Assembly (NCBI GenBank): GCA_017547865.1
Contig: JAFYOA010000154.1
Span: 1 to 20,217 of the forward strand
Direction of reading: 5' to 3'
DNA: 20,217 bases
Source: Clostridia bacterium
GTDB lineage: Bacteria; Bacillota_A; Clostridia; Oscillospirales; Acutalibacteraceae
Shown: piece after piece, positions 2,665 to 16,912 of the stretch
Position numbering within the stretch: position 1 is the first letter of the stretch
How the letters are laid out: every line of letters starts with the position of its first letter
Made by a program: the position numbers and the translations under genes
The notes under the pieces: generated by a model
The model's input: only the letters and a program-made list of their open reading frames with translations
The model's database searches: none
What the model was told of the DNA's origin: nothing

Positions 2665-4275
2665 ATGTCCAAGAAGCCTCTTGAAGATGTGGCAACCGGT
2701 GTCCATCGTGCAAAACTGTGGGAGATCGCGTTCTATGCTCTGAACAACACCTCTACCAACGTGTACATGATGGTCGTGGGCTCCATCTCCTACTTCCTCG
2801 TCGGTATCGTCGGCGTCGGCGCCGTTCTGGCCGGCTCCATCGTTACCCTTCTGCGTGTGTGGGACGGCGTGACCGACCCGTTTGTCGGCATGGCTGTTGA
2901 CAACACCAACACCAAGTTTGGTAAGAACCGTCCGTTTATCCTGCTGGGTCAGATCATTCTGTTCACCACCACTTTTGTTATGTTCCGGTTCCTGCCGGTC
3001 ATTCCCACGGGCGGCCGTTTTGTGGCCTTTATTCTGATCTACATGATCTACATCATCGGCTACACCTGCCAGTGCGTTGTCACCAAGTCTGCTCAGACCT
3101 GCCTGACCAACGATCCTCAGCAGCGTCCCATGTTCTCTATGTTCGACTCCACCTACAACATCATTCTGATGAGCGTGTTCTGGCCCCTGTTCCTCTCCGG
3201 TACTCTGGTTCCCCAGTTTACCCTGAACATGACCGAGCATGCCGATCAGCTGAATGCTCTGATCGCTCAGAGCCCCAACCTGGCCAACTGCGTCAAGGAT
3301 GGCGTTCTCTCCGGTCTGTACAACCCGGCCCTGTGGCAGCACATGCAGCTGGTCATGGGTGTTGTTTCTGCCGTGTTTGCTACCTGCGGTATCATCGGTC
3401 TGTGGCGCAAGGATAACTCCAAGTACTACGGCCTGGGCAAGGCTGCCAAGGTTTCCTTCAAGGATTACGCCGACGTTCTGGCCCACAACCGTGGTATCCA
3501 GATGTTGGTTCTGGCCGCTTCCTCCGATAAGCTGGCCGCCAACTGCACCGGCAACACCTCCGTGCTGATTGCCCTGTACGGCATCATCTTCGGCAACTTC
3601 GCTCTGTCCGGTTCCGTTTCCGCCATCACCGGTGTGCCCACCGCCCTCATCGGCATCCTGGGCATCGGCATCCTGGCCCGCAAGATGGGTCAGAAGCAGT
3701 GCCTGGTCATCGGTACCTGGGGCTCCATCATCTCCGCTGTTATTCTCGGCGTGATGATCTTCTTTGGCCGCGGCGGCAATATGGTGCTGCCCACCTTCAA
3801 CCTCACCAAGCTGGAAACCTACGGCAACCTGATCAACCCCGCCAGCTGGAGCATCTTTGGTCTGATCTTCTGCCTGGTGTTCGTTGTGATGAAGGGCTTC
3901 TCCACCATGTCCGGCTCCATCGTTATCCCCATGACCGCCGACTGCGCCGACTACGAAGTGTATCGTTCCGGCCGCTATGTGCCCGGTCTCATGGGTACCC
4001 TGTTCAGCTTTGTGGATAAGGTGATCTCCTCTCTGGCTGCTACCATCGTTTCTCTGGTGTATGCTGCTATCGGTTACACCAACAGCCTGCCGGCTGAAAA
4101 CGATCCCTATTCCATGGGCATCATGATCTGCACGCTGATCTGCTTCCTGGGCATGCCCATGATCGGCTGGCTGCTCAACGTTGTTGCCATGAAGTTCTAT
4201 CCCCTCTCCAAAGAGAAGATGGAATCCATTCAGGATGACATCGCCCGCATTAAGGCCGAAGCTGCCAAGCAGTAA
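2665..4275 (+). CDS. GPH-family (MelB-like) cation:sugar symporter, MFS superfamily
   Basis: A 536-residue, roughly 12-helix membrane protein of the glycoside-pentoside-hexuronide:cation symporter family (MFS_2), which imports oligosaccharides, glycosides or uronides with Na+ or H+. The family signature lies at residues 66-90: WDGVTDP (D67 and D71 correspond to the MelB helix-II cation-site acids), then VGMAVDN...GKNRP. The middle (about 180-225) has a polar 40-residue stretch longer than the usual loop, followed by further hydrophobic helices and a charged cytoplasmic tail. The start has a good AAAGGAG site. Codon use is strongly biased to C/G-ending codons, suggesting high expression. It is divergent from the AraC-type regulator and the nucleoside-hydrolase-like gene, so its cargo may be the substrate of that enzyme or of the lyase operon nearby. 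Confidence 0.93.
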   Translation: MSKKPLEDVATGVHRAKLWEIAFYALNNTSTNVYMMVVGSISYFLVGIVGVGAVLAGSIVTLLRVWDGVTDPFVGMAVDNTNTKFGKNRPFILLGQIILFTTTFVMFRFLPVIPTGGRFVAFILIYMIYIIGYTCQCVVTKSAQTCLTNDPQQRPMFSMFDSTYNIILMSVFWPLFLSGTLVPQFTLNMTEHADQLNALIAQSPNLANCVKDGVLSGLYNPALWQHMQLVMGVVSAVFATCGIIGLWRKDNSKYYGLGKAAKVSFKDYADVLAHNRGIQMLVLAASSDKLAANCTGNTSVLIALYGIIFGNFALSGSVSAITGVPTALIGILGIGILARKMGQKQCLVIGTWGSIISAVILGVMIFFGRGGNMVLPTFNLTKLETYGNLINPASWSIFGLIFCLVFVVMKGFSTMSGSIVIPMTADCADYEVYRSGRYVPGLMGTLFSFVDKVISSLAATIVSLVYAAIGYTNSLPAENDPYSMGIMICTLICFLGMPMIGWLLNVVAMKFYPLSKEKMESIQDDIARIKAEAAKQ

Positions 4276-4971: not shown

Positions 4972-6507
4972 TTATCTTTTTACAAAGTATTCGTCGTACC
5001 ACACCAGGAAAGCGTAAATCGTCCAGATCTTCCGCCAGTTGTCGGAATTTCCGCCGATGTATTCATCGTACAGCGCTTTCAACTCTTCCATGCGGAAGAA
5101 CTTTTCCGCAATGGGGCCAAACAGTTTGGCGCGCACATCGGCGTTGTAGCGTTCATCGGCCAGCCATACGCGGATGGGCACCACAAAGCCCAGCTTTTTG
5201 CGGTAGGCGATTTCTTCCGGCAGCACTTTGGAGGCAGCGGCACGCAGAACCAGCTTGTTCTGTGTCTCGTCCACCTTCAGGGCGGCGGGTACACGGGCAG
5301 CAATGTCGTAAATGCGCAGGTCGGTGAGGGGCATGCGCACTTCCAGCCCGGCGGCTTCGCTCATTTTGTCTACGTTCAGGTAAATATCGCCATCCAGCCA
5401 AATCTGAATATCCACGTCCGTCATTTTGGAGAGGGGATCAAGCTCTTTGTTTTCGGCGTAAATTTCTTTGGTCAGGTCAATGGGCAGCAGGTCTTCTTTG
5501 TAATTTTTAAGCAAAGCCTGCTTTTCGGGTTCCTTCATAATGTTGGTGTTGCCAACATAGAAGTTCTCCAGCTCCGGGGCATAGCGTGCGGCGTTGCGGT
5601 ACATGTTGTACCCGCCGAAGAATTCATCGGCGCCTTCGCCGGAATAGCAAATGGAGGCGTGCTGAGCCACGCTGCGGCAGCCCAGCGCAAAAGCAACGGC
5701 AGAGGCATCGCCCAGGGGCTGCTCCATGTTGTACATAACGTAGGGCACAATGGCAAAGTAATCTTCCGGGGTCACCACGCAGCGGTTAAACTTGCGTTCC
5801 AGAATTTTCGCGGTTTCAGAGGCCAGACCGGATTCATCCAGCCGGCTGTCGTCGTAGCCACAGGAGTTGGCGGCGACGGCATCGGACATGGCCAGAACAT
5901 AGGAAGAATCCACACCGGCAGAAAGGAAGCTTTCCACGGTTTCGTCTTCGCTTTTTACTTCTTTCATCACCTGCTGCAGGGTGGTGTGCAGCTCATCGGC
6001 AAATTCTTCCACCGTTTTGGTGGTGTCCGGGGTAAAATACGGCTTCCAGTAGCGGTCGATGGTCAGTTCACCGTTCTGCCAGGTCAGGGTGCGGCCGGGC
6101 ATCAGCTTCTTCACGCCTTTAAAGAAGGTGTCTTCACCGGCGGGGTAGCTGAAGGTGAGGTACAGCTGCAGCCGGTCTTCGTTCAGTTCTTTCACAAAAC
6201 CGGGCTGTTCCATAAGCTTACGAATGGAGGTGCCCACCAGCAGGTTGTTGTCGGCGGTCACATAATAATAAAACGTTTTGGCGCCAAAGGGGTCACGCAG
6301 GCCGAAAAGTGTCTGCGTTTCTTCATCCCAAATGGCAGCGGCAAACATGCCGTGCAGGTGCAGTCCCATCTCTTTGCCCCAGGCGCGGTAAGCGGCCAGC
6401 AAAATGGCTTCTTCCCGTTCTTTGGCAGGCAGCAAACGATCGACGCCGAGTTCTTCACACAGCGCCGCCCAGTTTCGAATGTGTCCTCTGTATTCTAAAA
6501 TTCTCAT
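4972..6507 (-). CDS. Asparagine-synthetase-like amidotransferase with truncated glutaminase domain
   Basis: A 511-residue AsnB-type protein. The C-terminal ATP-pyrophosphatase domain is intact: PP-loop LSAGVDSS at 195-202 (second Gly of SGG replaced by Ala), SGEGADEFFGGY at 289-300, and a C-terminal EVRMPLTD region. The N-terminal part aligns only from the middle of a normal glutaminase domain onward (HGMFAAAIWDEETQTLFGLRDPFGAK, described by its landmarks GMFA at 53-56 and RDPFG at 71-75). The catalytic Cys2 and about 70 residues after it are absent; the protein starts MRILEYRG. The start is secure: there is an AAAAAGGA site and a near-consensus promoter ending about 30 bases upstream, leaving no room for the missing part. 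It probably uses free ammonia, or another amine or acid, to form an amide. Product identity as asparagine is likely but unproven. Confidence 0.87.
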   Translation of the reverse strand: MRILEYRGHIRNWAALCEELGVDRLLPAKEREEAILLAAYRAWGKEMGLHLHGMFAAAIWDEETQTLFGLRDPFGAKTFYYYVTADNNLLVGTSIRKLMEQPGFVKELNEDRLQLYLTFSYPAGEDTFFKGVKKLMPGRTLTWQNGELTIDRYWKPYFTPDTTKTVEEFADELHTTLQQVMKEVKSEDETVESFLSAGVDSSYVLAMSDAVAANSCGYDDSRLDESGLASETAKILERKFNRCVVTPEDYFAIVPYVMYNMEQPLGDASAVAFALGCRSVAQHASICYSGEGADEFFGGYNMYRNAARYAPELENFYVGNTNIMKEPEKQALLKNYKEDLLPIDLTKEIYAENKELDPLSKMTDVDIQIWLDGDIYLNVDKMSEAAGLEVRMPLTDLRIYDIAARVPAALKVDETQNKLVLRAAASKVLPEEIAYRKKLGFVVPIRVWLADERYNADVRAKLFGPIAEKFFRMEELKALYDEYIGGNSDNWRKIWTIYAFLVWYDEYFVKR

Positions 6508-6748: not shown

Positions 6749-7048
6749 ATGGTGGGATTTGGAAACAGGCTGCGGCAATTGCGCAAAGAAAAGAAGCTGA
6801 CCCAACGGCAGCTGGCAGAAATGGTGGGCCTGCGCCACAGCGTGGTTTCTTTTTATGAGATCGGCGAGCGGAGCCCTTCCCCAGAGATTATTAAAAAACT
6901 GGCTTCGTCGCTGCATGTCAGTTCCGATTATCTTTTGGGGATCGACAGGGGAGAAACGGTGGATCTGTTCGGCCTGGATGAAGAGGACAAGCACCTGGTG
7001 CGCACCATGGTGGAGACCCTGCGCAGCAAAAAGCAGAAGGAACGGTGA
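6749..7048 (+). CDS. Small XRE-family helix-turn-helix regulator
   Basis: A 99-residue DNA-binding protein of the Cro/C1 (HTH_3) type. The HTH domain fills residues 7-66: a basic first helix RLRQLRKEKK, LTQRQLAEMVGL, the recognition helix around RHSVVSFYEIGER, and the usual P-x-x-x-x-x-x-LA...V-S-S-DYLLG ending. A short acidic then basic tail (67-99) follows, with no separate sensor domain. The ATG at 6749 has AAGGAA...GGGGTGAT upstream; the frame is open further 5' but without a site. A TACAAT at 6721-6726 could be its -10. It is divergent from the asparagine-synthetase-like gene, which is its most plausible target besides itself. Confidence 0.9.
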   Translation: MVGFGNRLRQLRKEKKLTQRQLAEMVGLRHSVVSFYEIGERSPSPEIIKKLASSLHVSSDYLLGIDRGETVDLFGLDEEDKHLVRTMVETLRSKKQKER

Positions 7049-7056
7049 TTCCGCAA

Positions 7057-7085
7057 TTGACAACCTCACCGCCCCGTGCTACAAT
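7057..7085 (+). promoter_or_regulatory. Near-consensus promoter of the beta-sandwich gene
   Basis: A perfect -35 TTGACA (7057-7062), a 17-base spacer and TACAAT (7080-7085) begin 9 bases after the XRE regulator stop. The predicted start near 7092 leaves only about 20 bases of leader, filled by an AGGAGG site at 7098-7103. Confidence 0.85.
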
Positions 7086-7111: not shown

Positions 7112-7741
7112 ATGATTCAGTTGATGCGCTATAAAATGTACCCCGAAACCATGGAAGTGCTGTACGACCGGCCGTTCTCCGAAGAAATGCTGAAAGAAGA
7201 TTTTGAACTGAAAGACGGCCGCTGGTATGTGGATGAGGAAGGCTGGCTGGTAGGCGAAAACCGCCGCAGTTCTGCCGCTATGCTGATGTCCAAGGGAGAG
7301 TATTTCGGCGATGTGCTCATTGAGTTTGATGCCGCCACCGTGCTGCCCGCCACCCGTGATATCAACCTTACGTTCCACGGAAGCTGGGATGAAGAAAAGA
7401 ACTGCCGCGATGTAGCCTATGTGTTCGGCCTGGAGGGCTGGTATAACGGCTACGTTGGATTTGAAAAATCTCCGGAATATAAATTTGTGGTGAACACCAA
7501 GCTGCTGGATTTTAAGCCGGGCAAGGTATACCATGTGGCCGTGGGCAACATTGGCAACGATCTTTTTGTGGTGGTGGATGGCGTTTTGGCGCTGGAAATC
7601 CGCGATCCTGACCCCATTGATATCAATAAATATGGTCGCATTGGGTTTGAGGCATACTGCACCCGTGTAAAATATAAAAACCTGCAGGTAAAGCGTTTGG
7701 CTTACGAAGACGGCTTTACCCCCTATGAACCTGAATTCTGA
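7112..7741 (+). CDS. Predicted concanavalin-like / DUF1080-like beta-sandwich protein
   Basis: A 209-residue soluble protein with no signal peptide. It is rich in alternating hydrophobic beta strands and aromatic residues. Typical segments are GRWYVDEEGWLVGE (36-49), YFGDVLIEFDA, NLTFHGSWDE, GLEGWYNGYVGFE, then KVYHVAVGNIGNDLFVVVDG and a closing GRIGFEAYCTRVKYKNLQV. This pattern (bind/measure ... HVAV...DGxxALE...GRIGFEAY...VKYKNLQV) is that of the laminin-G/concanavalin-like domains found in 3-keto-disaccharide hydrolases (DUF1080) and related glycan-binding proteins. I see no definite catalytic residues. The ATG at 7112 follows a perfect AGGAGG by 8 bases. It has its own promoter and terminator, next to the lyase operon, so a role in the same carbohydrate pathway is likely but inferred. 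Confidence 0.65.
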   Translation: MIQLMRYKMYPETMEVLYDRPFSEEMLKEDFELKDGRWYVDEEGWLVGENRRSSAAMLMSKGEYFGDVLIEFDAATVLPATRDINLTFHGSWDEEKNCRDVAYVFGLEGWYNGYVGFEKSPEYKFVVNTKLLDFKPGKVYHVAVGNIGNDLFVVVDGVLALEIRDPDPIDINKYGRIGFEAYCTRVKYKNLQVKRLAYEDGFTPYEPEF

Positions 7742-7746
7742 TTTTG

Positions 7747-7778
7747 CGCCGCTGCGAAGCTTTTCGCGGCGGCGTTTT
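7747..7778 (+). terminator. Intrinsic terminator after the beta-sandwich gene
   Basis: A 12-base GC-rich stem (7747-7758 with 7763-7774, one G-T wobble) with a 4-base loop is followed by TTTT, starting 5 bases after the stop codon. Confidence 0.92.
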
Positions 7779-7792
7779 GTTTGCAAATGCTG

Positions 7793-7821
7793 TTGCAATT
7801 TAAAGCGGAAGCGTGTATAGT
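7793..7821 (+). promoter_or_regulatory. Predicted promoter of the five-gene lyase operon
   Basis: TTGCAA (7793-7798), a 17-base spacer and TATAGT (7816-7821) lie just after the preceding terminator and about 70 bases before the first lyase gene. The leader holds an AAGGAGG not used by any obvious ORF and a small hairpin (7850-7873). Confidence 0.65.
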
Positions 7822-7892
7822 ACAGATGTACCTTATTTTGCACAAGGAGGCACCCCCAAGCCGCTTTGGGTGCTGCAGAAAGGATGAACCGT

Positions 7893-9998
7893 ATGAATTT
7901 TTTTGAATACCGGGAATATATGAAGAAGAACACCACCGCGTTGTTCTCCGGGCTGGATGAAACCTGCCGCCGCCGTGCTGCCAACCGCCAAATGCTGCGG
8001 GATGCCCTGAACGGCAAACGCACCATGGAAGAACTGAAGGCTGCCGCCGGCGTGGACAACAACGAACTGCTGGTGGCCTACTATATGAACGGCACAAACG
8101 CCGAAACCGATGGCATGGAGACCGTTCGCGTGCCCGCGCCGGAAGAAGTGCTGCAGACTTTTAAAAACAACGGCAAGTGGGGCAAGCACCCCCGCATTAT
8201 GGCGAATGCAGAGACGTTTGCCAATATTCGCGCCCATAAAGATGAGCTGCCCTATTCCAACTGGGTGAAGACCCTGAAAGACCGGGCCGAGCCGTATATG
8301 GAGGCAGATTTTGCTCCCTGGGTGGATGCCGGCGACGAAGAAATGCCCAAAAAGAACTACCTTGGCCCCTGCCGTACGGTGAAGCAGCGGGTGCAGGCCC
8401 TGGCTATGCTGTACCACGTGACCGGCGAGCTGCGCTATGCCCAGCGTGCCAAGGCAGAAATGCTGAATTTCATTACCTACCCCACCTATTACCCGGAGCA
8501 TTACCTGAATGTGGCGGAAGCCTGCTATGCCCTGTGCCTGGGCTACGACTGGCTGTATGAGCTGTTCACCGAAGAGGAGCGGCAGAGCATTCGCGACGCG
8601 GTGAAGGAAAAGTGCTTTGACACCGCCTACGACCTGATGAAGACCACCAAGGGCTGGGCCGGTGTGCTGAACAACTGGAACCAGGTGTGCAACGGCGGCA
8701 TTGCCATTGGCGCCATGACGCTGATGGAATATTACCCGGAGCTTTGCAGTGAACTGGTGAGCTTTGCTGTGAAGAATATGCCCCGTTCCCTGGCAGATAT
8801 CAGCCCCGACGGCGTGTACCCGGAGGGCGTGATGTACTGGGAATACGGCACTACCTACGGCACCTACTTTATGGCGACGCTGGATTCTGTTTTGGGCGAA
8901 GATTACGGCCTGAGCAAGCTGCAGGGTTATGCGGAATCCATGGCCTATGCCATGTACTGCACTGCGCCCCAGGGTGCGCTGGCTTCTTACGCCGATACCC
9001 ATGTTTTGAATAAAGAAACCGGTATGATGGAGCGCGGCGCGCCCCAATCTTACTGGATGGCCGATCATTTCAATGAGCCCGCTTTTGCCTGGTTCCCGTT
9101 GACCTACATGCCCTACAGCGGCCTGTACGAAGGCGGCGTGTATGAAATGCTGTGGTATAAGCCGCAGGAAACGGTGACTCCTGCCCAGGCGGATTTCCCC
9201 CTGGATATGACCTACGACGGCACCGAAAGCATGACCTTCTTCCGCCAGAACTGGACGGACGAAGAAGCGATGTATGTTCTCTTTAAGGGCGGCAACAACC
9301 AGTCCAACCACGGCTGCCTGGATATCGGCCAGTTCCTGCTGGATCGCTTCGGCATCCGCTGGGCGGCGGACCTGCAGAGCGAAAGCTACGCCGTGCCGGA
9401 TTATTGGGATAAAATTGAGGGCCGCTGGCGCTACTACCGCAAGCGTGCCGAGGGCCACAATACCCTGCTCATCAACCCGGGCGAAGGGGCGGACCAGGAC
9501 GTGTTTGCTGCCTGCAGCATCGATACCTTTGGCGCAGCACCGGGCGCGGCTTTCTCTGTGTGCGATATCACAGAAGCCTACGCGCCCTTTGGCGCCGAAA
9601 GTGTGCGCCGCGCCTGCATGGTGTTTGATAACCGCACGAAGCTGCTGGTGCAGGACGAAGTAAAGTGCGAAAAGGAAAGTACCCTGTGGTGGCGCATGCA
9701 CACCGAAGTGAAGGATGTGACCGTGAACGGCAATGTGGCTGTTCTGAAAGAAAACGGCCATACCCTGCGTGTGACCGCCCAAACCCCCGGGGCAGTCTTT
9801 GTTCTCTCCGGTACAGAGCCGGTGGCTCCCAGCAAGGGCGATCCCTACGATTCTCCCAACCCGGATGTGCAGGTGCTGAGCCTGAAACTGGAAAATGTGA
9901 AGGAAGCCACCCTGCGCGTAGCCTTTACCTTTGATGGCGACGACACTTTGCCGCCGGAAATGAAGATCGATGAGTTTGCGGCATTTATTCAGAAATAA
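7893..9998 (+). CDS. Heparinase II/III-family polysaccharide lyase-like protein, copy A
   Basis: A 701-residue protein, cytoplasmic (no signal peptide). Residues of about 90-400 form the alpha/alpha-toroid and 430-701 the beta-sandwich of the heparinase II/III/alginate-lyase fold, which cleaves uronic-acid linkages by beta-elimination. Landmarks: NNWNQVCNGG at 260-269, EGVMYWEYGT at 311-320 holding the candidate catalytic tyrosine, SNHGCLDIGQF at 471-481 with H473, GIRWAADL after it, and KRAEGHNTLLINP at 517-529 with H522. I chose the ATG at 7893 because the paralogue downstream starts at the matching residue (M-x-FF-x-YREYM) and an AAAGGA site precedes it; upstream TTG and ATG options lack well-spaced sites. 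It is first in an operon with a close paralogue 29 bases downstream. The substrate is unknown; an intracellular location suggests imported oligosaccharides. Confidence 0.85.
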   Translation: MNFFEYREYMKKNTTALFSGLDETCRRRAANRQMLRDALNGKRTMEELKAAAGVDNNELLVAYYMNGTNAETDGMETVRVPAPEEVLQTFKNNGKWGKHPRIMANAETFANIRAHKDELPYSNWVKTLKDRAEPYMEADFAPWVDAGDEEMPKKNYLGPCRTVKQRVQALAMLYHVTGELRYAQRAKAEMLNFITYPTYYPEHYLNVAEACYALCLGYDWLYELFTEEERQSIRDAVKEKCFDTAYDLMKTTKGWAGVLNNWNQVCNGGIAIGAMTLMEYYPELCSELVSFAVKNMPRSLADISPDGVYPEGVMYWEYGTTYGTYFMATLDSVLGEDYGLSKLQGYAESMAYAMYCTAPQGALASYADTHVLNKETGMMERGAPQSYWMADHFNEPAFAWFPLTYMPYSGLYEGGVYEMLWYKPQETVTPAQADFPLDMTYDGTESMTFFRQNWTDEEAMYVLFKGGNNQSNHGCLDIGQFLLDRFGIRWAADLQSESYAVPDYWDKIEGRWRYYRKRAEGHNTLLINPGEGADQDVFAACSIDTFGAAPGAAFSVCDITEAYAPFGAESVRRACMVFDNRTKLLVQDEVKCEKESTLWWRMHTEVKDVTVNGNVAVLKENGHTLRVTAQTPGAVFVLSGTEPVAPSKGDPYDSPNPDVQVLSLKLENVKEATLRVAFTFDGDDTLPPEMKIDEFAAFIQK

Positions 9999-10027
9999 GC
10001 CGCACGAGATGTGAAAGGAAAGCGGAT

Positions 10028-12145
10028 ATGAAATTTTTTGATTACCGTGAATATATGAAAAACCACAGCACCGCTGTGTTTACCGGGCTGGACGAAGAGT
10101 GCCGCTGTAATGCCCCCGGCCGTCAGTTCCTGCGGGATGCCCGTGCCGGAAAGACCCCCGTGTGGGTGGATACCATTGCGCCGATTTCCGAGCCCGACGG
10201 CGATTGGGAATTCGGTGAGCTGCAAATTGCCCGTTTTATGCGCGGCACCGATGCCGCCACCGCCGGCATGGAGACCATCCGCGTACCCAAGCCGGAGGAA
10301 GTTCTGAACAAATTTAAAGAAAGCGGCTTGTGGGGCAAGCACCCCCGCATTATGGCCAACGAAGATACCTTTGCCCGTATTCGCGCCCACAAGGACGAGC
10401 AGCCCTATAAAAACTGGGTGAAAGCGCTGGAAAAACGGGCAGAACCCTATTTTACCGAGCCGTTTGCCCCCTGGGTGGATGCCTGCGGCAAAATGCAGCC
10501 CAAAAAGGACTACCTGACCCCCTGCCGCATGGTGAAGGTGCGTGTGCAGACCCTTGCCATGCTGTGGCGCATTACCGGCGAGCTGCGTTACGCCGAGCGC
10601 GCTAAGGCGGAGATGCTGAATTTCATCACCTACCCCACCTATTACCCGGAGCACTACCTGAACGTGGCAGAAGCCTGCTATGCTCTGTGCCTTGGCTATG
10701 ACTGGATGTACGATCTTTTCACCGAAGACGAGCGGCAGCGCATTCGCGATGCGGTGAAAGGAAAATGCTTTGATACCGCCTATGGCCCCATGTCCACCGC
10801 TACGGAATGGGCCGGCCGCCTGAACAACTGGAACCAGGTGTGCAATGGCGGCACCGCTATCGGTGCGTTGGCGCTGATGGAATACTACCCCGAGCTGTGC
10901 AGCGAACTGGTGAGCTTTGCTGTGGCCAACGTGCCCCGTTCTCTGGCAGATATCGGCCCGGACGGCGCGTATTCCGAAGGCCCCACCTACTGGGTGTACG
11001 GCACGGCCTACGCCACCTACTTTATGGCGGCCCTCACCTCTGTGCTGGGGGAAGACTTTGGCCTGAGCGAAGTGGACGGCTACCGCGAAACCATGAGCTA
11101 CATGATTTACTGCACTTCTCCCAAGGGTATGCTGGCTTCTTATGCCGATACCAACTCCAATGAGCGCGGTCTGGCCGGCCGCGGCACGCCCCAGGCTTAC
11201 TGGATGGCGCAGCTGTTTGACGAACCCACCTACGCCTGGTACCCGGTGAAGTACTATCCCTACGGCGGCGACAGCGAGGGCGGCGTGTACGAATTGCTTT
11301 GGTATAAGCCTGAGAAGGATGCTCCCCCCGCCGAAGCCGATTACCCCCTGGATATGGTTTACGGCGGCGTGGAAAGCCTGGCTTTCTTCCGCAAAGACTG
11401 GAACGACCCGGACAGCATGTACGCCTTCTTTAAGGGCGGCGATAACCAATCGAACCACGGCTGCCTGGACATCGGCCAGTTCCTGCTGGAACGCTTCGGC
11501 GTGCGCTGGGCCATGGATCTGAAGGGAGAAAACTACGCTGTACCCGAATACTGGGATCGTTTGGGCGGCCGCTGGCGTTACTACCGCAAGCGCGCCGAGG
11601 GCCACAACACCCTGCTCATCAACCCCGGCGAAGAAGCCGATCAGGATATTTTTGCCGCTGCTGCCATCGATACCTTCGGTACGGCCCCGGGCGCAGCCTT
11701 TGCGGCGTGCGATATCACCGAAGCCTACGCTCCCTTTGGTGCAAAAAGCGTGCGCCGTGCCTGCATGCTGTTCGATAACCGCAATAAGTTCCTGGTGCAG
11801 GATGAAGTAACATGCGAAAAGGAAAGCACCCTGTGGTGGAACCTGCATACGGAAGTGAAGGACATTACGGTGGAGGGCAACGTGGCTGTGCTGAAAGAAA
11901 ACGGCCACACCCTGCGCATCACCATGCAGACCCCCAACGCGCAGTTTGTTCTGACAGATGCCGTGCCGCTGCCCGGCAGCTACCAGACGCCTCACAACAA
12001 CCCCAACGAAGGCGTGCTCGTGCTGCGTGTTAAGCTGGAAAACGTGAAAGAAACCACTCTGCGTGCTGTGTTCACCTTTGACGGCGACGATACCCTGCCG
12101 CCGGAAATGAACATTGATGATTTTGCAGATTTTATTCAGAAATAA
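10028..12145 (+). CDS. Heparinase II/III-family polysaccharide lyase-like protein, copy B
   Basis: A 705-residue tandem paralogue of the preceding gene with the same architecture. Landmarks: NNWNQVCNGG at 266-275, EGPTYWVYGT at 317-326, SNHGCLDIGQF at 475-485 (H477) and KRAEGHNTLLINP at 521-533 (H526). The two copies share long identical runs, for example 36 residues at 185-220 of copy A, and near-identical C-termini. They differ most in residues 30-75, in the linker before the beta-sandwich, and around the candidate catalytic tyrosine loop (EGV-M-YWEYGT-TYG in copy A versus EGP-T-YWVYGT-AYA here). Identical protein stretches differ at third codon positions, so the duplication is not recent or has been under strong selection. 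The start has a GAAAGGAAA site. The pair may act on related linkages, or as a heterocomplex; both are inference. Confidence 0.85.
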   Translation: MKFFDYREYMKNHSTAVFTGLDEECRCNAPGRQFLRDARAGKTPVWVDTIAPISEPDGDWEFGELQIARFMRGTDAATAGMETIRVPKPEEVLNKFKESGLWGKHPRIMANEDTFARIRAHKDEQPYKNWVKALEKRAEPYFTEPFAPWVDACGKMQPKKDYLTPCRMVKVRVQTLAMLWRITGELRYAERAKAEMLNFITYPTYYPEHYLNVAEACYALCLGYDWMYDLFTEDERQRIRDAVKGKCFDTAYGPMSTATEWAGRLNNWNQVCNGGTAIGALALMEYYPELCSELVSFAVANVPRSLADIGPDGAYSEGPTYWVYGTAYATYFMAALTSVLGEDFGLSEVDGYRETMSYMIYCTSPKGMLASYADTNSNERGLAGRGTPQAYWMAQLFDEPTYAWYPVKYYPYGGDSEGGVYELLWYKPEKDAPPAEADYPLDMVYGGVESLAFFRKDWNDPDSMYAFFKGGDNQSNHGCLDIGQFLLERFGVRWAMDLKGENYAVPEYWDRLGGRWRYYRKRAEGHNTLLINPGEEADQDIFAAAAIDTFGTAPGAAFAACDITEAYAPFGAKSVRRACMLFDNRNKFLVQDEVTCEKESTLWWNLHTEVKDITVEGNVAVLKENGHTLRITMQTPNAQFVLTDAVPLPGSYQTPHNNPNEGVLVLRVKLENVKETTLRAVFTFDGDDTLPPEMNIDDFADFIQK

Positions 12146-12157
12146 ACGGAGGCAACC

Positions 12158-13051
12158 ATGATAAAAGATCAGTTTGGAAACACCTGGTATAAGGGCAACT
12201 GGCACACCCATACCACGGCGAGCGACGGCCGAAGCACGCCGGAAGATACCCTGCAGCTGTACCGGGAGAACGGCTATGATTTTATTGCCCTGACCGACCA
12301 CTACAAGTGGCGGCCGGAAAGCCTGGAAGAAAACGGTATTCTGTGCCTTTCCGGTGCAGAGTACGATACCGGCGCTGATGTGTGGGAGGGCGTGTACCAT
12401 GTAACCGCCATTGGCTGCACCGAAGAACCGAAGCTCTCCCGTGAACCGCAGAAAGCCTCTGTGGTGGAAATTATGAACGAGATCCACCGCTGCGGCGGTA
12501 TTGCCATTCTGGCGCATCCTGCCTGGTCTTTGAATACCCCGGAACAGCTGGAAAAGCTGCCCATGGATGGCGTGGAGATTTACAATACTGTTTCCGGCCG
12601 CCCCTGGAACTGCCGCCCAGAATCTGGTGCCATTGTGGATCAGCTGGCGGTGAAAGGCGTGTTTCCCCGGTGCATTGCCGCGGATGATACCCATTTTTAC
12701 GAGGGTGACCAGTGCCGCTCTTACATTATGGTGAAAGCCAACGAATGTACCCGCGAGGCCATTCTGCAGGCATTTTTAGCCGGTGATTACTACGCCACCC
12801 AGGGTCCGGAATTCTCCGTGGCCGTGGAAGGCGATGAGGTTGTGGTGCGTTCTTCTCCTGTGTTTGATGTGATTTTCTATACCAATATGCCCTGGACCCC
12901 CAAGCGTGTGGTGCGTGGGGAGAACGTGACCGAAGCCCGGTATCTCATTAAGAGCGGCGACCGCTTTGTGCGTGTGGAACTGATCGATGCAGAGGGCAAT
13001 TCTGCCTGGAGCCCGGCAATCCCCGTGAACGGCTGGCCGGAGAAAAAGTGA
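12158..13051 (+). CDS. PHP-domain metal-dependent hydrolase
   Basis: A 297-residue protein of the polymerase-and-histidinol-phosphatase superfamily, whose members hydrolyse phosphoesters with a two- or three-metal centre. All the expected ligands are visible: motif I WHTHTTASDG (H16, H18, D23), motif II ALTDH (D47, H48), GAEYD with E68, HVT with H81, AHPAW with H120, and DDTH (D176-D177, H179). The C-terminal 100 or so residues look beta-rich (VAVEGDEVVVRSS..., FVRVELIDAEGNSAWS), resembling the accessory domain of the CehA/McbA-type PHP hydrolases. There is no signal peptide. It starts 12 bases after the second lyase gene with a CGGAGG site, so it belongs to the same mRNA. It probably removes a phosphate or phosphodiester from the pathway's sugar; the exact substrate is unknown. 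Confidence 0.87.
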   Translation: MIKDQFGNTWYKGNWHTHTTASDGRSTPEDTLQLYRENGYDFIALTDHYKWRPESLEENGILCLSGAEYDTGADVWEGVYHVTAIGCTEEPKLSREPQKASVVEIMNEIHRCGGIAILAHPAWSLNTPEQLEKLPMDGVEIYNTVSGRPWNCRPESGAIVDQLAVKGVFPRCIAADDTHFYEGDQCRSYIMVKANECTREAILQAFLAGDYYATQGPEFSVAVEGDEVVVRSSPVFDVIFYTNMPWTPKRVVRGENVTEARYLIKSGDRFVRVELIDAEGNSAWSPAIPVNGWPEKK

Positions 13052-13067
13052 TTTTGGAGGAAAAGCC

Positions 13068-13835
13068 ATGGAAAAAGTGATTTTGATTTTGGTGGACGGC
13101 ATGCGCCCGGACGCTATGGAAGCCTGCGGCCACCCGCTGCTGGAAGAACTGCGCGAAACAACAGCTCACTGCGAACATACCCGCACGGTGATGCCCTCTG
13201 TGACCCTGCCGTGCCATATGTCGCTGTTCCACAGCGTGCCGCCGGAACGCCACGGTACCACCACCAATACTTACATGCCCCAGGTGCGCCCGGTGACCGG
13301 CCTCATTGATGCCGCCCACGATGCCGGCTGCTCCACGGCTATGTTCTACAGCTGGGAAGAGCTGCGGGATATCGCCCGCCCGGGTAAGCTGGATTATTCC
13401 GTGTTCATCAGCCTGCACAAGTTTGAACTGATGGGCACCCGCCTGACCAAAAGCGCCATTGCTTACTGCCAGGCAGAAAAGCCGGATTTTGTGTTCCTGT
13501 ATTTGGGCGAGCCCGACGAAGTGGGCCACAAGTACGGCTGGATGACCAAGGAGTACCTGGAGTCCGTTTCGCTGGCGATGGGCGATGCCAAGCTGGTGAT
13601 GGATGCCCTGGGCGATGAATATACGATTATTCTCACCGCAGACCACGGCGGCCACGACCGCGCCCATGGCACGGAAATGCCGGAAGATATGACCATCCCG
13701 CTGTTCATTCGCGGAAAAGAAGCACCCGCCGGTACAAAACTGCCGGAGGCTTCGATTCTGGACATTGCCCCCACAGTGGCAAAGCTGCTGGGTGTGCGTA
13801 AGCCGCGGGACTGGGAAGGCAAGGAGTTGCTGTAA
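13068..13835 (+). CDS. Alkaline-phosphatase-superfamily phosphodiesterase-like enzyme
   Basis: A 255-residue enzyme of the type I phosphodiesterase / nucleotide pyrophosphatase branch of the alkaline phosphatase superfamily, without a signal peptide. The two-metal site is complete: D10 in LILVDGMRPD, the nucleophile T46 in VMPSVTLPCHMS, D150 and H154 in GEPDEVGHKYG, D192 and H193 in LTADHGGHDRAHG, and H200. The threonine nucleophile and the lack of a sulfatase C/S-x-P-x-R motif argue for phosphoester rather than sulfate-ester hydrolysis. It is short compared with the usual NPP enzymes (about 400 residues), so it is a compact form. It follows the PHP gene by 16 bases with a GGAGG site. Two phosphoester hydrolases in one lyase operon suggest a phosphate-bearing glycan. 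Confidence 0.88.
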   Translation: MEKVILILVDGMRPDAMEACGHPLLEELRETTAHCEHTRTVMPSVTLPCHMSLFHSVPPERHGTTTNTYMPQVRPVTGLIDAAHDAGCSTAMFYSWEELRDIARPGKLDYSVFISLHKFELMGTRLTKSAIAYCQAEKPDFVFLYLGEPDEVGHKYGWMTKEYLESVSLAMGDAKLVMDALGDEYTIILTADHGGHDRAHGTEMPEDMTIPLFIRGKEAPAGTKLPEASILDIAPTVAKLLGVRKPRDWEGKELL

Positions 13836-13861
13836 TCTTTTTATTTAACGGAGGGTTATGT

Positions 13862-14818
13862 ATGAAATTGAGAAGAATGTTTTGGGCTGTTATTGCAATA
13901 GTACTGCTGTTGACCGGCTGCAGTGCTCCTGCAGGTGACAGCTGGGAAGATATGATCCCGGACGAAAACTTTGTGGTGGAAAACATCAGCAAATCTGTGC
14001 TGGACGCCTGCACGGATACCGTGGCCCTGCGCGAGGACGGAACGGTGCTGCTGGCGGGCAGCGGACAGGCCGGATCCCGGGGCTATGCGAGCCTGAAGGA
14101 TGTTGCGTCTGTTTCGGTCGGTCTCAATCATTTGGTGGTGCTGAAGACAGATGGCACTGTTGAACTGGTGGCACTTGGAATCGCCAGTGTACAGGACGAG
14201 GGTCTTTTCGCCGCCGTTGCGGAGTGGACGGATATAATGGATGTTTCCGTAGGCGGCTCTACGGTGGTTGGTCTGCGAAAGAACGGAACAGTGGTTGCTG
14301 CCGGTCACAGCGACACATGGGCCAAAAACGTGGCTAAATGGTCACAGATCGTAGCGATCGAAAGCAGCGGAGATTACATCGTGGGTCTGCGGGCAAACGG
14401 CACCGTTGTTGTGTGCGATGACAGCGCGCGCGGACGTGTGGATGGTTTTTCTGATTGGACGGACATTACGGATATCTCTGTCGGCTGGGTTGTGGTTGGC
14501 TTGAAAGATGACGGCACTGTGGTGGCCAAAGGTGAAAATAGTACCGGGCAATGCGACCTGGCCGACTGGACAGACATTGTGGCTGTTTCTGCCGGAGATT
14601 ACCATACAGTCGGATTGAAAAGCGACGGCACCGTGGTGGCTGTGGGGCACAACGACCATGGCCAGTGCGACGTGAGTGATTGGACAGACATCGTGGCAAT
14701 TGCAGCAGGTTCTTCCATCACAATGGGTCTTCGATCGGATGGAACGGTGGTTGCCGTGGGAAACAATGGGTTTGGCGCCTGCAATGTTTCCAACTGGACG
14801 AACGTCTGCTTGCCGTAA
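13862..14818 (+). CDS. Lipoprotein with seven RCC1-like beta-propeller repeats
   Basis: A 318-residue secreted lipoprotein. The N-terminus is KLRR, then a hydrophobic stretch, then LLTGC with lipobox Cys20; the mature protein would be membrane-anchored outside the cell. From residue 51 there are seven RCC1-like repeats, each centred on DGTV or NGTV at 59, 97, 141, 179, 217, 255 and 293. The period is exactly 38 residues except for one of 44, and consensus units read VGLKSDGTVVAVGxNxxGQC-x-x-x-x-WTDIVAIAAG. Seven blades fit a closed propeller. RCC1 propellers mostly bind proteins or ligands; no catalysis is implied. The gene follows the phosphatase-like gene by 26 bases with a GGAGGG site and no terminator between, so it is the last operon gene. 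Its codon use is less strictly C/G-ending than that of its neighbours, hinting at a separate origin. Confidence 0.88.
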   Translation: MKLRRMFWAVIAIVLLLTGCSAPAGDSWEDMIPDENFVVENISKSVLDACTDTVALREDGTVLLAGSGQAGSRGYASLKDVASVSVGLNHLVVLKTDGTVELVALGIASVQDEGLFAAVAEWTDIMDVSVGGSTVVGLRKNGTVVAAGHSDTWAKNVAKWSQIVAIESSGDYIVGLRANGTVVVCDDSARGRVDGFSDWTDITDISVGWVVVGLKDDGTVVAKGENSTGQCDLADWTDIVAVSAGDYHTVGLKSDGTVVAVGHNDHGQCDVSDWTDIVAIAAGSSITMGLRSDGTVVAVGNNGFGACNVSNWTNVCLP

Positions 14819-14825
14819 AAAAATA

Positions 14826-14859
14826 GCCTGCACTTTTTGTGGTGCAGGCATCTTTTTTT
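14826..14859. terminator. Bidirectional intrinsic terminator at the end of the lyase operon
   Basis: A perfect 8-base stem (14826-14833 with 14842-14849) has a T tract after it and a run of A residues before it. It lies between the convergent RCC1-lipoprotein gene and the Gfo/Idh/MocA gene and can serve both. Confidence 0.9.
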
Positions 14860-14861
14860 AT

Positions 14862-15914
14862 TTATCTGTTTTCGTCAAAAGCGACGCGGGCGCCGGTTTC
14901 GGCAGATTCAAAGGCGGCTTCCATCACCTTCATCACGCGGCGAACTTCGCAGTGCTTGATGGCCTGCTCGGCGGTGCCGTCGATGGCGGCGCAGAAGTTG
15001 CGGTAGAAGTCATGCACATCGGAAACAGGACGTTCCACTTCCCAGGTTTCCATGGTCACGCTGTCGCGGGGGGCCATGGTCTTGGTGATGCCGGCAGCGG
15101 TCTGTACGGGCAGCACGTCGCTTTCGTGCCAGGCCAGGCAGTGAGCCACCTGGGCCTTTTCACGCCAGTCGGTAATCAGGGCGGAGCCGTTTTCGGCCTG
15201 CATATAGAAGCGGGGCAGAGCGATGAAGTTGTAGGTGCCCACTTCCACATAGGCGGTTTTGCCGGTGGCAAAGTTGATGGTCAGCTTAAAGCCATCGTCC
15301 ACTTCTTTGTTGGTGATGTGGGTGGTGGTGCAGTATACGTTATCAATGGGGTCGGTGATCAGCTGCAGCATCTGGTCGATCAGATGCACGCCCCAGTCGA
15401 GGATCATGCCGCCGCCGTGTTCCTTTTCGCAGCGCCAGTCGCTGGGAATACCGCGGGAACCGTGGATGCGGGATTCTACGTTGATGGGAGCACCGATCTT
15501 GCCTTCGGTGATGATCTGCTTCATGGCCAGGAAGTCAACGTCCCAGCGGCGGTTCTGGTGTACGGTGAAGAGCTTGCCGGCAGCCTTGGCAGCAGCGAGC
15601 ATTTCATCCAGCACAGCCAGGGACATTTCCACGGGCTTTTCGCACACCACGTTTTTGCCGGCGGCCAGGGCAGCCAGAACAATGGGCAGGTGCGTGTCGT
15701 TGGGGGTGGCAACGGTAACAATTTCCACTGCCGGATCGGCCAGAACTTCTTCCAGAGAAGCATAGGCGTGGATGCCGCGGCTTTCGGCCAGGGCATTGCG
15801 CTCGGGTTTAATATCGTAAATACCGGCCAGGTTCAGCACGTCACTTTTCAGGGCGTGGTCGGCGTGCCAGCCGCCCTGTCCGCCATAACCAATAACAGCA
15901 ATGTTCTTTTTCAT
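14862..15914 (-). CDS. Gfo/Idh/MocA-family NAD(P)-dependent oxidoreductase
   Basis: A 350-residue soluble dehydrogenase of the glucose-fructose oxidoreductase/inositol dehydrogenase family. The N-terminal Rossmann fold begins KKNIAVIGYGGQGG (G9-x-G11-G12-x-G14). The family motif CEKPVEM has E92-K93-P94, whose lysine is catalytic, and the C-terminal domain carries GGGMILDWGVHLIDQ with D172 and H176, the usual DxxxH catalytic pair. Such enzymes oxidise or reduce hydroxyls on sugars, inositols or sugar acids; the exact substrate cannot be told. The start has an AAAGGA site and its own promoter lies 40-70 bases upstream. It lies 83 bases downstream of the AEC transporter gene on the same strand and may also be co-transcribed with it. 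Confidence 0.92.
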   Translation of the reverse strand: MKKNIAVIGYGGQGGWHADHALKSDVLNLAGIYDIKPERNALAESRGIHAYASLEEVLADPAVEIVTVATPNDTHLPIVLAALAAGKNVVCEKPVEMSLAVLDEMLAAAKAAGKLFTVHQNRRWDVDFLAMKQIITEGKIGAPINVESRIHGSRGIPSDWRCEKEHGGGMILDWGVHLIDQMLQLITDPIDNVYCTTTHITNKEVDDGFKLTINFATGKTAYVEVGTYNFIALPRFYMQAENGSALITDWREKAQVAHCLAWHESDVLPVQTAAGITKTMAPRDSVTMETWEVERPVSDVHDFYRNFCAAIDGTAEQAIKHCEVRRVMKVMEAAFESAETGARVAFDENR

Positions 15915-15997: not shown

Positions 15998-16912
15998 TTA
16001 GTGCAGGAAAGTCAGCAGCAGGGTCATAATGGTAATGCTGATGGGAATGGAGAGAGAATTGATGGCTGCGGCCACGCTGCCGTCGGCGCCGGAGGCTTCC
16101 GTAAGCAGGGGGGCACTGCTGGCGCAGGGGGCCATCAGCACAACGCTGACCGACAGGCGGATATCCTGCGGCAGGGGCAGCAGGAAGTAAACGATCATAG
16201 ACATGGTGAAGCACATGGTGTAGCGCAGCACCAGCAGACGAACGATGATGGAGCGGCCCACTTTGGGCAGCTTCAGTTCAAACAGAATACCAATGCTTAG
16301 CATGGCCAAAAAGCCGTTGCCGCTGCCAATGGTGCCGGAAAGATCCAAAAATGCCTGGGGCAGCTGCACATTGCACAAAGAAAGGATGATGAGGGTCATG
16401 TAGGTGAGGAACACGGGGGAAGAGAAGATTTTCTTTACCAAAGGCACCAGCCGCACGCGGCCATCGCCGCCCATGCGGGCGTTGCCCACGGCAATGTTCA
16501 CGCCGTAGCACATCAGCGCCACAGAAATATCGAACATGCAGATGGCGGCAAAACCATCGGCAGAAACAAGGCCGTTGAGGAACGGCATGGAGAAGGTGGC
16601 AATGGCAAAGCCGTTTGTGCTGAAAGCGAAGATCGCCTGCTCGTTGGGGGTACGGCGAATGTTCAGCAGCTGGCCGGCCAGCAGAAGAGATGTATTGGCA
16701 AACAAACCAATGCCCAGACCCGCCAGCAGGTGGGGCGTGATGGAAACACCCTGAAAGCCGTTGATAATAGCGGCGGGCATGGTGAGATTCAGAATCACGC
16801 TGTTGAGAAATTTGGAATCGCTGCGGTGAAAAATACCCAGCTTTTTAAAGCTGTAGCCAATCAGCAGAATGGCTACGTAGATGAATGTTTTGATCAATAC
16901 TGCCTCGTTCAT
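15998..16912 (-). CDS. AEC (auxin efflux carrier) family transporter
   Basis: A 304-residue integral membrane protein with about 10 hydrophobic helices and the AEC/membrane-transport-protein pattern. An N-terminal helix leads into GYSFKKLGIF, then LNSVILNLTMPAAII at the family's first discontinuous helix region (around residue 40), and a matching second half ends with VVLMAPCASSAPLLTEASGAD...INSLSIPISI. Bacterial AEC proteins carry malate, malonate or other small organic acids, and bile-acid-related BART-superfamily folds share the architecture. The cargo here is unknown. The start has a GGAGG site 4-8 bases upstream of the ATG at 16912. It is followed by a Gfo/Idh/MocA oxidoreductase, so the cargo could be a sugar acid or its product. 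Confidence 0.88.
   Translation of the reverse strand: MNEAVLIKTFIYVAILLIGYSFKKLGIFHRSDSKFLNSVILNLTMPAAIINGFQGVSITPHLLAGLGIGLFANTSLLLAGQLLNIRRTPNEQAIFAFSTNGFAIATFSMPFLNGLVSADGFAAICMFDISVALMCYGVNIAVGNARMGGDGRVRLVPLVKKIFSSPVFLTYMTLIILSLCNVQLPQAFLDLSGTIGSGNGFLAMLSIGILFELKLPKVGRSIIVRLLVLRYTMCFTMSMIVYFLLPLPQDIRLSVSVVLMAPCASSAPLLTEASGADGSVAAAINSLSIPISITIMTLLLTFLH

Follow-up and report, generated by a model that had tools for sequence, protein, structure and literature searches.

The described enzymes closest to those considered here are the PL35 GAG lyases, for which the structures of GAGase II (8KHV), GAGase VII (8KHW) and a chondroitinase (9O3Q) have been solved. According to the available text of two reports, the substrates of the known PL35 enzymes are GAGs without phosphate (PMC12088678, PMC11262172), and in GAGase II the residues of the metal site surround an Mn ion (PMC12088678). 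A PL35 lyase also takes part in a described multi-step route: in the available portion of the report on Bacteroides caccae, the PL35 lyase encoded in PUL25 can use chondroitin sulfate once a sulfatase has acted on it, and a GH88 enzyme follows (PMC12269599). Uronate glycans bearing a phosphonate are represented by the CPS-B capsule of Bacteroides fragilis, which contains galacturonate and a 2-aminoethylphosphonate group according to the part of PMC12413058 drawn on here.

Here, we describe a cluster of five genes (Table 1) in a 20,217-nucleotide stretch of DNA from a Clostridia bacterium, the whole of which is referred to below as the window. Our tentative reading, held at less than even confidence, is that the cluster forms an operon for the cytosolic breakdown of an imported uronate oligosaccharide bearing a phosphate, phosphodiester or phosphonate. 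By analogy with the portion of the PUL25 report available, the operon resembles that route, which likewise pairs a PL35 lyase with an enzyme of AlkP fold (there a sulfatase removing a blocking group, here the product of gene 4), with phosphoesterases in the sulfatase's place and without GH88. The AlkP protein differs in having no sulfatase motif, a PHP protein is added, and a Pfam scan of 19 window proteins found no GH88/GH105, SusCD or sulfatase. The first-pass annotation had held that no standard pathway contains such a set, a claim that the chondroitin route of sulfatase, PL35 lyase and GH88 qualifies, as far as that source goes. Literature searches returned no precedent for an intracellular route to phosphorylated acidic glycans, nothing joining a PHP domain, heparinase and alkaline phosphatase, and nothing joining a phosphatase or phosphodiester with a polysaccharide lyase in the utilization of a phosphorylated polysaccharide.

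Table 1. Features of the five-gene cluster and its borders, with positions in the window
Feature	Length	Position	Strand	Basis or remark
Terminator-like hairpin and T run, belonging to the upstream gene		7746..7775	+	z -3.5, 1/200 shuffles equal
Candidate sigma-70-type promoter, TTGCAA-17-TATAGT		7793..7821	+	9/12 consensus matches
Five tandem genes		7893-14818	+	gaps 29, 12, 16, 26 bp
Gene 1, PL35-type lyase A	701 aa	7893..9998	+	PF16332 + PF07940; in-frame ATG at 7884 also possible
Gene 2, PL35-type lyase B	705 aa	10028..12145	+	PF16332 + PF07940
Gene 3, CehA/McbA-type PHP metallohydrolase	297 aa	12158..13051	+	NCBIfam NF038032
Gene 4, compact NPP-like AlkP-superfamily hydrolase	255 aa	13068..13835	+	PF01663, 88.4 bits
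Gene 5, RCC1-repeat protein	318 aa	13862..14818	+	PF13540, E 4.3e-29; lipobox-like N terminus
Bidirectional intrinsic terminator		14826..14849	.	folding vs shuffles; T runs on both strands

The close spacing of the genes agrees with the earlier view of five genes in one transcription unit, a Shine-Dalgarno-like sequence precedes each of the five starts, and from this layout we infer that the genes are co-transcribed. They had also been assigned a shared promoter and terminator, and these two elements fare differently. The terminator is strong (-17.7 kcal/mol, z -5.0, equalled by 0 of 200 shuffles), terminator-like sites as a class showing no enrichment in the window (9 versus 8.3 expected); since its T runs lie on both strands, the convergent gene at 14862-15914 can use it as well. 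The promoter is a consensus match commended by its position, as promoter-like sites are no commoner in the window than in shuffled sequence (5 versus a mean of 4.0). The hairpin upstream ends the preceding gene, and the operon therefore looks like a separate unit. The 5' leader has no significant structure (z -0.04), Rfam (gathering threshold) and tRNA scans of the window gave no match, and neither did a PDB sequence search with the gene at 7112.

Lyases A and B share 70% identity from end to end, and their nearest solved structures are the three PL35 enzymes named above, with which they have in common the domain pair and the catalytic Asn/Tyr/His. Residues 157-675 of lyase B match 8khv across both domains (E 8.4e-72), as does lyase A, and the matched region is preceded by about 90 more residues than in the PL35 structures. 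Residues of GAGase II, taken from the available text of PMC12088678, were mapped onto lyase B through this alignment and counted by hand. The triad Asn192/Tyr246/His401 corresponds to N267/Y321/H477 of lyase B; the same residues stand in the same alignment columns of lyase A and are invariant in all 120 listed homologs, out of 1657 at E<=0.001. Three of the four metal-site residues (Asp405, Asp421 and His457) are kept as well. The fourth, His403 of the PL35 GAG lyases, is replaced by Cys in both proteins (Cys479 in lyase B), a residue that can bind metal. These features point to PL35-type lyases with a predicted activity on uronate glycans. Alginate is disfavoured as a substrate: at N266 the lyase has the Asn of GAGase II (Asn191), where the alginate-active GAGase III has a His (His188) in the available part of PMC12088678; this position is His in 26 of the 120 listed homologs, so that N266 gives no more than a hint. 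In a simple hydropathy check none of the four enzymes has a signal-peptide-like N terminus, which upholds the earlier description of two intracellular heparinase-like lyases and sets lyases A and B apart from seven of the eight GAGases in the table of PMC11262172, the part of that source used here.

Two unrelated phosphoesterase-type genes follow, as had been annotated. The product of gene 3 exceeds the cut-off of the CehA/McbA-type model (91.2 bits versus 80) and falls below that of Pfam PHP (21.3 versus 26.4), and its PHP fold is joined to a C-terminal Ig/FN3-like domain. The residues H16, H18, D23, H48, E68, H120 and H179, which we take to be the His/Asp/Glu ligand set of the PHP active site, are the same in all 20 aligned sequences. 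Its closest structures by VIA-align, 3e38 and 2anu, are described in their titles just as predicted phosphoesterases.

In the AlkP protein, Thr46 occupies the nucleophile position and aligns with the Thr nucleophile of NPP enzymes. The protein is smaller than the members of the NPP/ENPP family, the bacterial NPP chain having about 380 residues and large insertions that are missing here, and the two are about 20% identical in structural alignment. Its best Foldseek match is a sulfatase, despite the lack of the C/S-x-P-x-R motif, the formylglycine motif of S1 sulfatases, for which it was searched. A sulfatase assignment was rejected on the absence of this motif and the Thr at the nucleophile position. 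There is also a weak resemblance to phosphonoacetate hydrolase (TIGR02335, E 3e-7; 1ei6, E 1e-6), a family likewise thought to use a Thr nucleophile (PMC10574752, available text). Judged from its residues, the protein looks like a phospho- or phosphono-ester hydrolase rather than a sulfatase. The last gene of the cluster, by the LLTGC read at its lipobox-like N terminus, encodes a probable surface lipoprotein.

The first-pass annotation had joined the four enzymes in one pathway, and their co-occurrence elsewhere is so far limited to the lyase and the PHP protein. We infer one such pair in a relative in which a lyase 66% identical to B (P0005) and a PHP protein 63% identical to gene 3 (P0125) come from the same source, each on a contig of 6320 bases. 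The set of lyase, PHP and AlkP genes was not seen elsewhere in the genome loci searched, which come from phyla other than the Bacillota, or in the plasmid regions. A profile search of genome contigs with the lyase alignment gave 80 PL35 loci among the matches listed (571 confirmed), at 31-39% identity, a range that leaves room for closer relatives; none of the 80 carries a PHP or AlkP relative in the DNA covered (tblastn, E 1e-6). Similarly, 20 regions around AlkP relatives of other phyla (29-50% identical) contain no PHP or PL35 relative (tblastn, E 1e-5), and 10 scanned neighbours of AlkP relatives in three loci (L109, L110 and L112) include no PHP protein, lyase or ABC importer. When 35 of the 80 PL35-bearing genomes were queried with the AlkP protein, 32 gave a match at E<=0.001, nearly always weak; just two matches reached at least 44% identity, and neither locus has a PHP or PL35 relative nearby. 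In Chloroflexota, AlkP relatives occur in 11 of 201 genomes at E<=1e-30, and 14 of 16 matches sit in longer frames and may be of another type. NF038032 is above its cut-off in all three PL35-bearing genomes tried, so the presence of a PHP protein by itself says little. No lyase is present in two plasmid records that carry a relative of the AlkP or PHP protein, the operon DNA found no match among plasmids in a distant-mode search, and viral contigs gave pattern matches, yet no lyase, PHP or AlkP relative.

No importer adjoins the operon; ABC-importer genes were often seen beside distant relatives of its two phosphoesterase-type genes. These relatives come from plasmid regions chosen manually, for the most part a single one for each genus, at 24-46% identity, with incomplete gene tables and no background rate. 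For the AlkP protein (220 plasmid records, 11 regions inspected, 10 annotated), ABC-importer genes directly adjoin the relative in 6 of the 10 annotated regions: those of Meiothermus, Paenibacillus, E. faecium and P. aeruginosa, and those of Pararhizobium and Shinella, in which the gene is for a solute-binding protein only. In four regions another phosphoesterase-type gene lies next to the AlkP relative or elsewhere in its cluster, encoding a metallophosphoesterase in Paenibacillus, a PHP protein of another type in E. faecium, a HAD protein in P. aeruginosa and an HD protein in Labrenzia, where it adjoins a TauD/TfdA gene and ABC genes lie 2.8 kb off. E. faecium was rejected as a second case of PHP with AlkP, its PHP protein being unrelated to gene 3 by BLASTP and profile comparison. 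Neither an importer nor a second phosphoesterase accompanies the AlkP relative in Rhodococcus, Phyllobacterium and Sulfuricella. For the PHP protein (36 plasmid records, 10 inspected, 8 annotated), ABC importers adjoin the relative in five of eight regions (Paenibacillus, Agrobacterium, Haematobacter, Rhizobium and Ensifer) and are not adjacent in Streptomyces, Verrucosispora and Haladaptatus. The importer clusters of Meiothermus, E. faecium, P. aeruginosa, Haematobacter and Rhizobium resemble the present operon in their AlkP or PHP relative, which is sometimes joined by another phosphatase-type gene or by phn genes, and no lyase was seen in them; unlike them, the present operon has no ABC importer. 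Among 21 plasmid records with lyase relatives, two were inspected: that of Ruegeria has glycosyltransferases nearby, and that of Bacteroides finegoldii has SusCD, two tandem heparinase-type lyases and GH88.

In the phosphorylated-oligosaccharide pathway that we tentatively favour, the NPP-like AlkP enzyme, with its Thr nucleophile and predicted metal dependence, would open the phospho-ester, the PHP enzyme would hydrolyse the ester remaining after this step, the paralogous lyases would cleave the chain at its uronates through beta-elimination, and the surface lipoprotein may bind the glycan. Intracellular breakdown of a uronate oligosaccharide is favoured by the enzyme families and the gene packing; a common substrate, its phosphate, the order of steps and the import route would follow by supposition. 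The earlier proposal of an imported phospho-oligosaccharide gains partial support from the kept triad, from the apparent phospho- or phosphono-ester character of the AlkP protein and from the ABC-importer genes near hand-picked distant relatives of the PHP and AlkP proteins, and a phosphorylated uronate glycan is plausible. The chief rival, which we consider nearly as likely, is that an unphosphorylated oligosaccharide of, for example, chondroitin or hyaluronan type is degraded, and that the PHP and AlkP enzymes serve general organophosphate salvage and just share the transcript with the lyases or act on a different compound imported under the same condition. The substrates of the known PL35 enzymes and the Asn at N266 agree with it, within the sources cited above. 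Moreover, relatives of the PHP protein (1285 proteins at E<=0.001) and of the AlkP protein (6833 at the same threshold) are common, whereas close-clade lyases number seven among the 120 listed homologs, so the former presumably occur mostly without the lyase. Against this rival stand the two unrelated phosphoesterase-type genes tightly spaced directly after the lyases, and the absence, among the scanned window proteins, of the GH88 or sulfatase that a GAG pathway would have. Xylose-2-phosphate of the GAG linkage region was considered as a substrate and set aside: no evidence for it was found, and the literature located concerns animal GAGs, as far as the available text goes.

Members named CehA/McbA include carbaryl hydrolases, in agreement with the listing made here, and the PHP enzyme might accordingly act on another ester or a carbamate of the glycan, leaving phosphate or phosphonate to the AlkP protein, or the latter might be a nucleotide or sugar-nucleotide pyrophosphatase. 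The purely predicted function of 3e38 and 2anu and the weak likeness of the AlkP protein to phosphonoacetate hydrolase fit this alternative. We regard it as unlikely, given that the presumed ligand set of PHP phosphoesterases is kept and that one of the eight annotated plasmid regions with a PHP relative, that of Rhizobium, is a cluster headed by phnF; in the Haematobacter region phn genes are found 5 kb downstream, with a Tn3 transposase in between. Turnover of a capsule or wall polymer belonging to the cell itself, in place of an imported glycan, would suit the missing importer and the probable surface lipoprotein at the end of the operon, and is very unlikely in view of the four enzymes without an export-signal-like N terminus and of the 19 scanned window proteins, none of which is for polymer synthesis.

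If the phosphoesterases and lyases do have a common substrate, the operon would be a means of degrading phosphorylated acidic glycans inside the cell, and it would tie foraging on capsules or glycans to the supply of phosphate or phosphonate. A narrower version, to which we attach little probability, is that the cell digests its neighbours' uronate glycans bearing phosphate or 2-aminoethylphosphonate, the NPP-like and PHP enzymes stripping the phospho-group and the Cys-ligand PL35 subfamily cleaving the chain inside the cell. A capsule like CPS-B, as described in the available text on it, would be a natural candidate substrate, a gut home for the host bacterium being our guess.

The Cys at the His403 position is confined, among the 120 listed homologs, to exactly the seven closest, P0001-P0007; 90 of the others have His at this position, and N, D, Q, M or K stands there in the remaining 23. 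In a midpoint-rooted tree of 14 sequences (nine close, five chosen outside), lyases A and B form with these seven a nine-sequence clade with support of 100/100, the stem of which measures 1.71 changes per column and for which the program issued a long-branch warning; homologs outside the clade, among the 120 listed, are 29-39% identical. Even if the lyases and phosphoesterases do not share a substrate, the clade is a deep-branching group of PL35 type, apparently cytosolic and altered at the metal site, a property that is directly testable. Within it, lyase A pairs with the near-identical P0004 and lyase B with P0001, and as these two come from the same source, each on a contig of 9479 bases, the tandem lyase pair is probably kept in one relative.

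Among the window proteins scanned, the GPH family was the sole sugar-importer family recognised, and its symporter gene lies outside the five-gene lyase operon, 3.6 kb upstream. Pfam and NCBIfam gave no match at E ≤ 0.001 for a 304-aa protein that seems to span the membrane and may act as a carrier.

The product of the gene directly upstream of the operon and the convergent oxidoreductase downstream could form a 3-keto-glycoside pair. The upstream product, which carries the PF06439 match, gave no match in a PDB sequence search. The oxidoreductase best resembles general oxidoreductases and inositol dehydrogenase, and its score against the disaccharide 3-dehydrogenase model is weak (46.8 bits against a cut-off of 650).

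Features in and around the lyase operon
Feature	Position	Strand	Remarks
GPH-family sugar symporter	2665-4275	+	weakly similar to glucuronide transporters
Asparagine-synthase-like protein	4972-6507	-	glutaminase domain matches start at profile positions 27 and 42
XRE-type regulator	6749-7048	+	RstR phage-repressor family, 74.2 bits, slightly below 80-bit cut-off
Promoter-like site TTGACA-17-TACAAT, 5' of upstream gene	7057-7085	+	11/12 matches, with TG; very good
Upstream gene	7112-7741	+	weak PF06439 (3-keto-disaccharide hydrolase) match, E 7e-5, under cut-off
RCC1-repeat lipoprotein	13862-14818	+
Gfo/Idh/MocA oxidoreductase, convergent, downstream of operon	14862-15914	-
304-aa protein	15998-16912	-

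Because its glutaminase matches begin only at those profile positions, the asparagine-synthase-like protein apparently lacks the N-terminal nucleophile region. The RCC1-repeat lipoprotein gene closes an operon of enzyme genes. Elsewhere, a 16.5-kb plasmid record from Bacteroides finegoldii (L136) holds a SusCD locus with GH88 and a sialate O-acetylesterase, in which two heparinase-type lyases stand in tandem.
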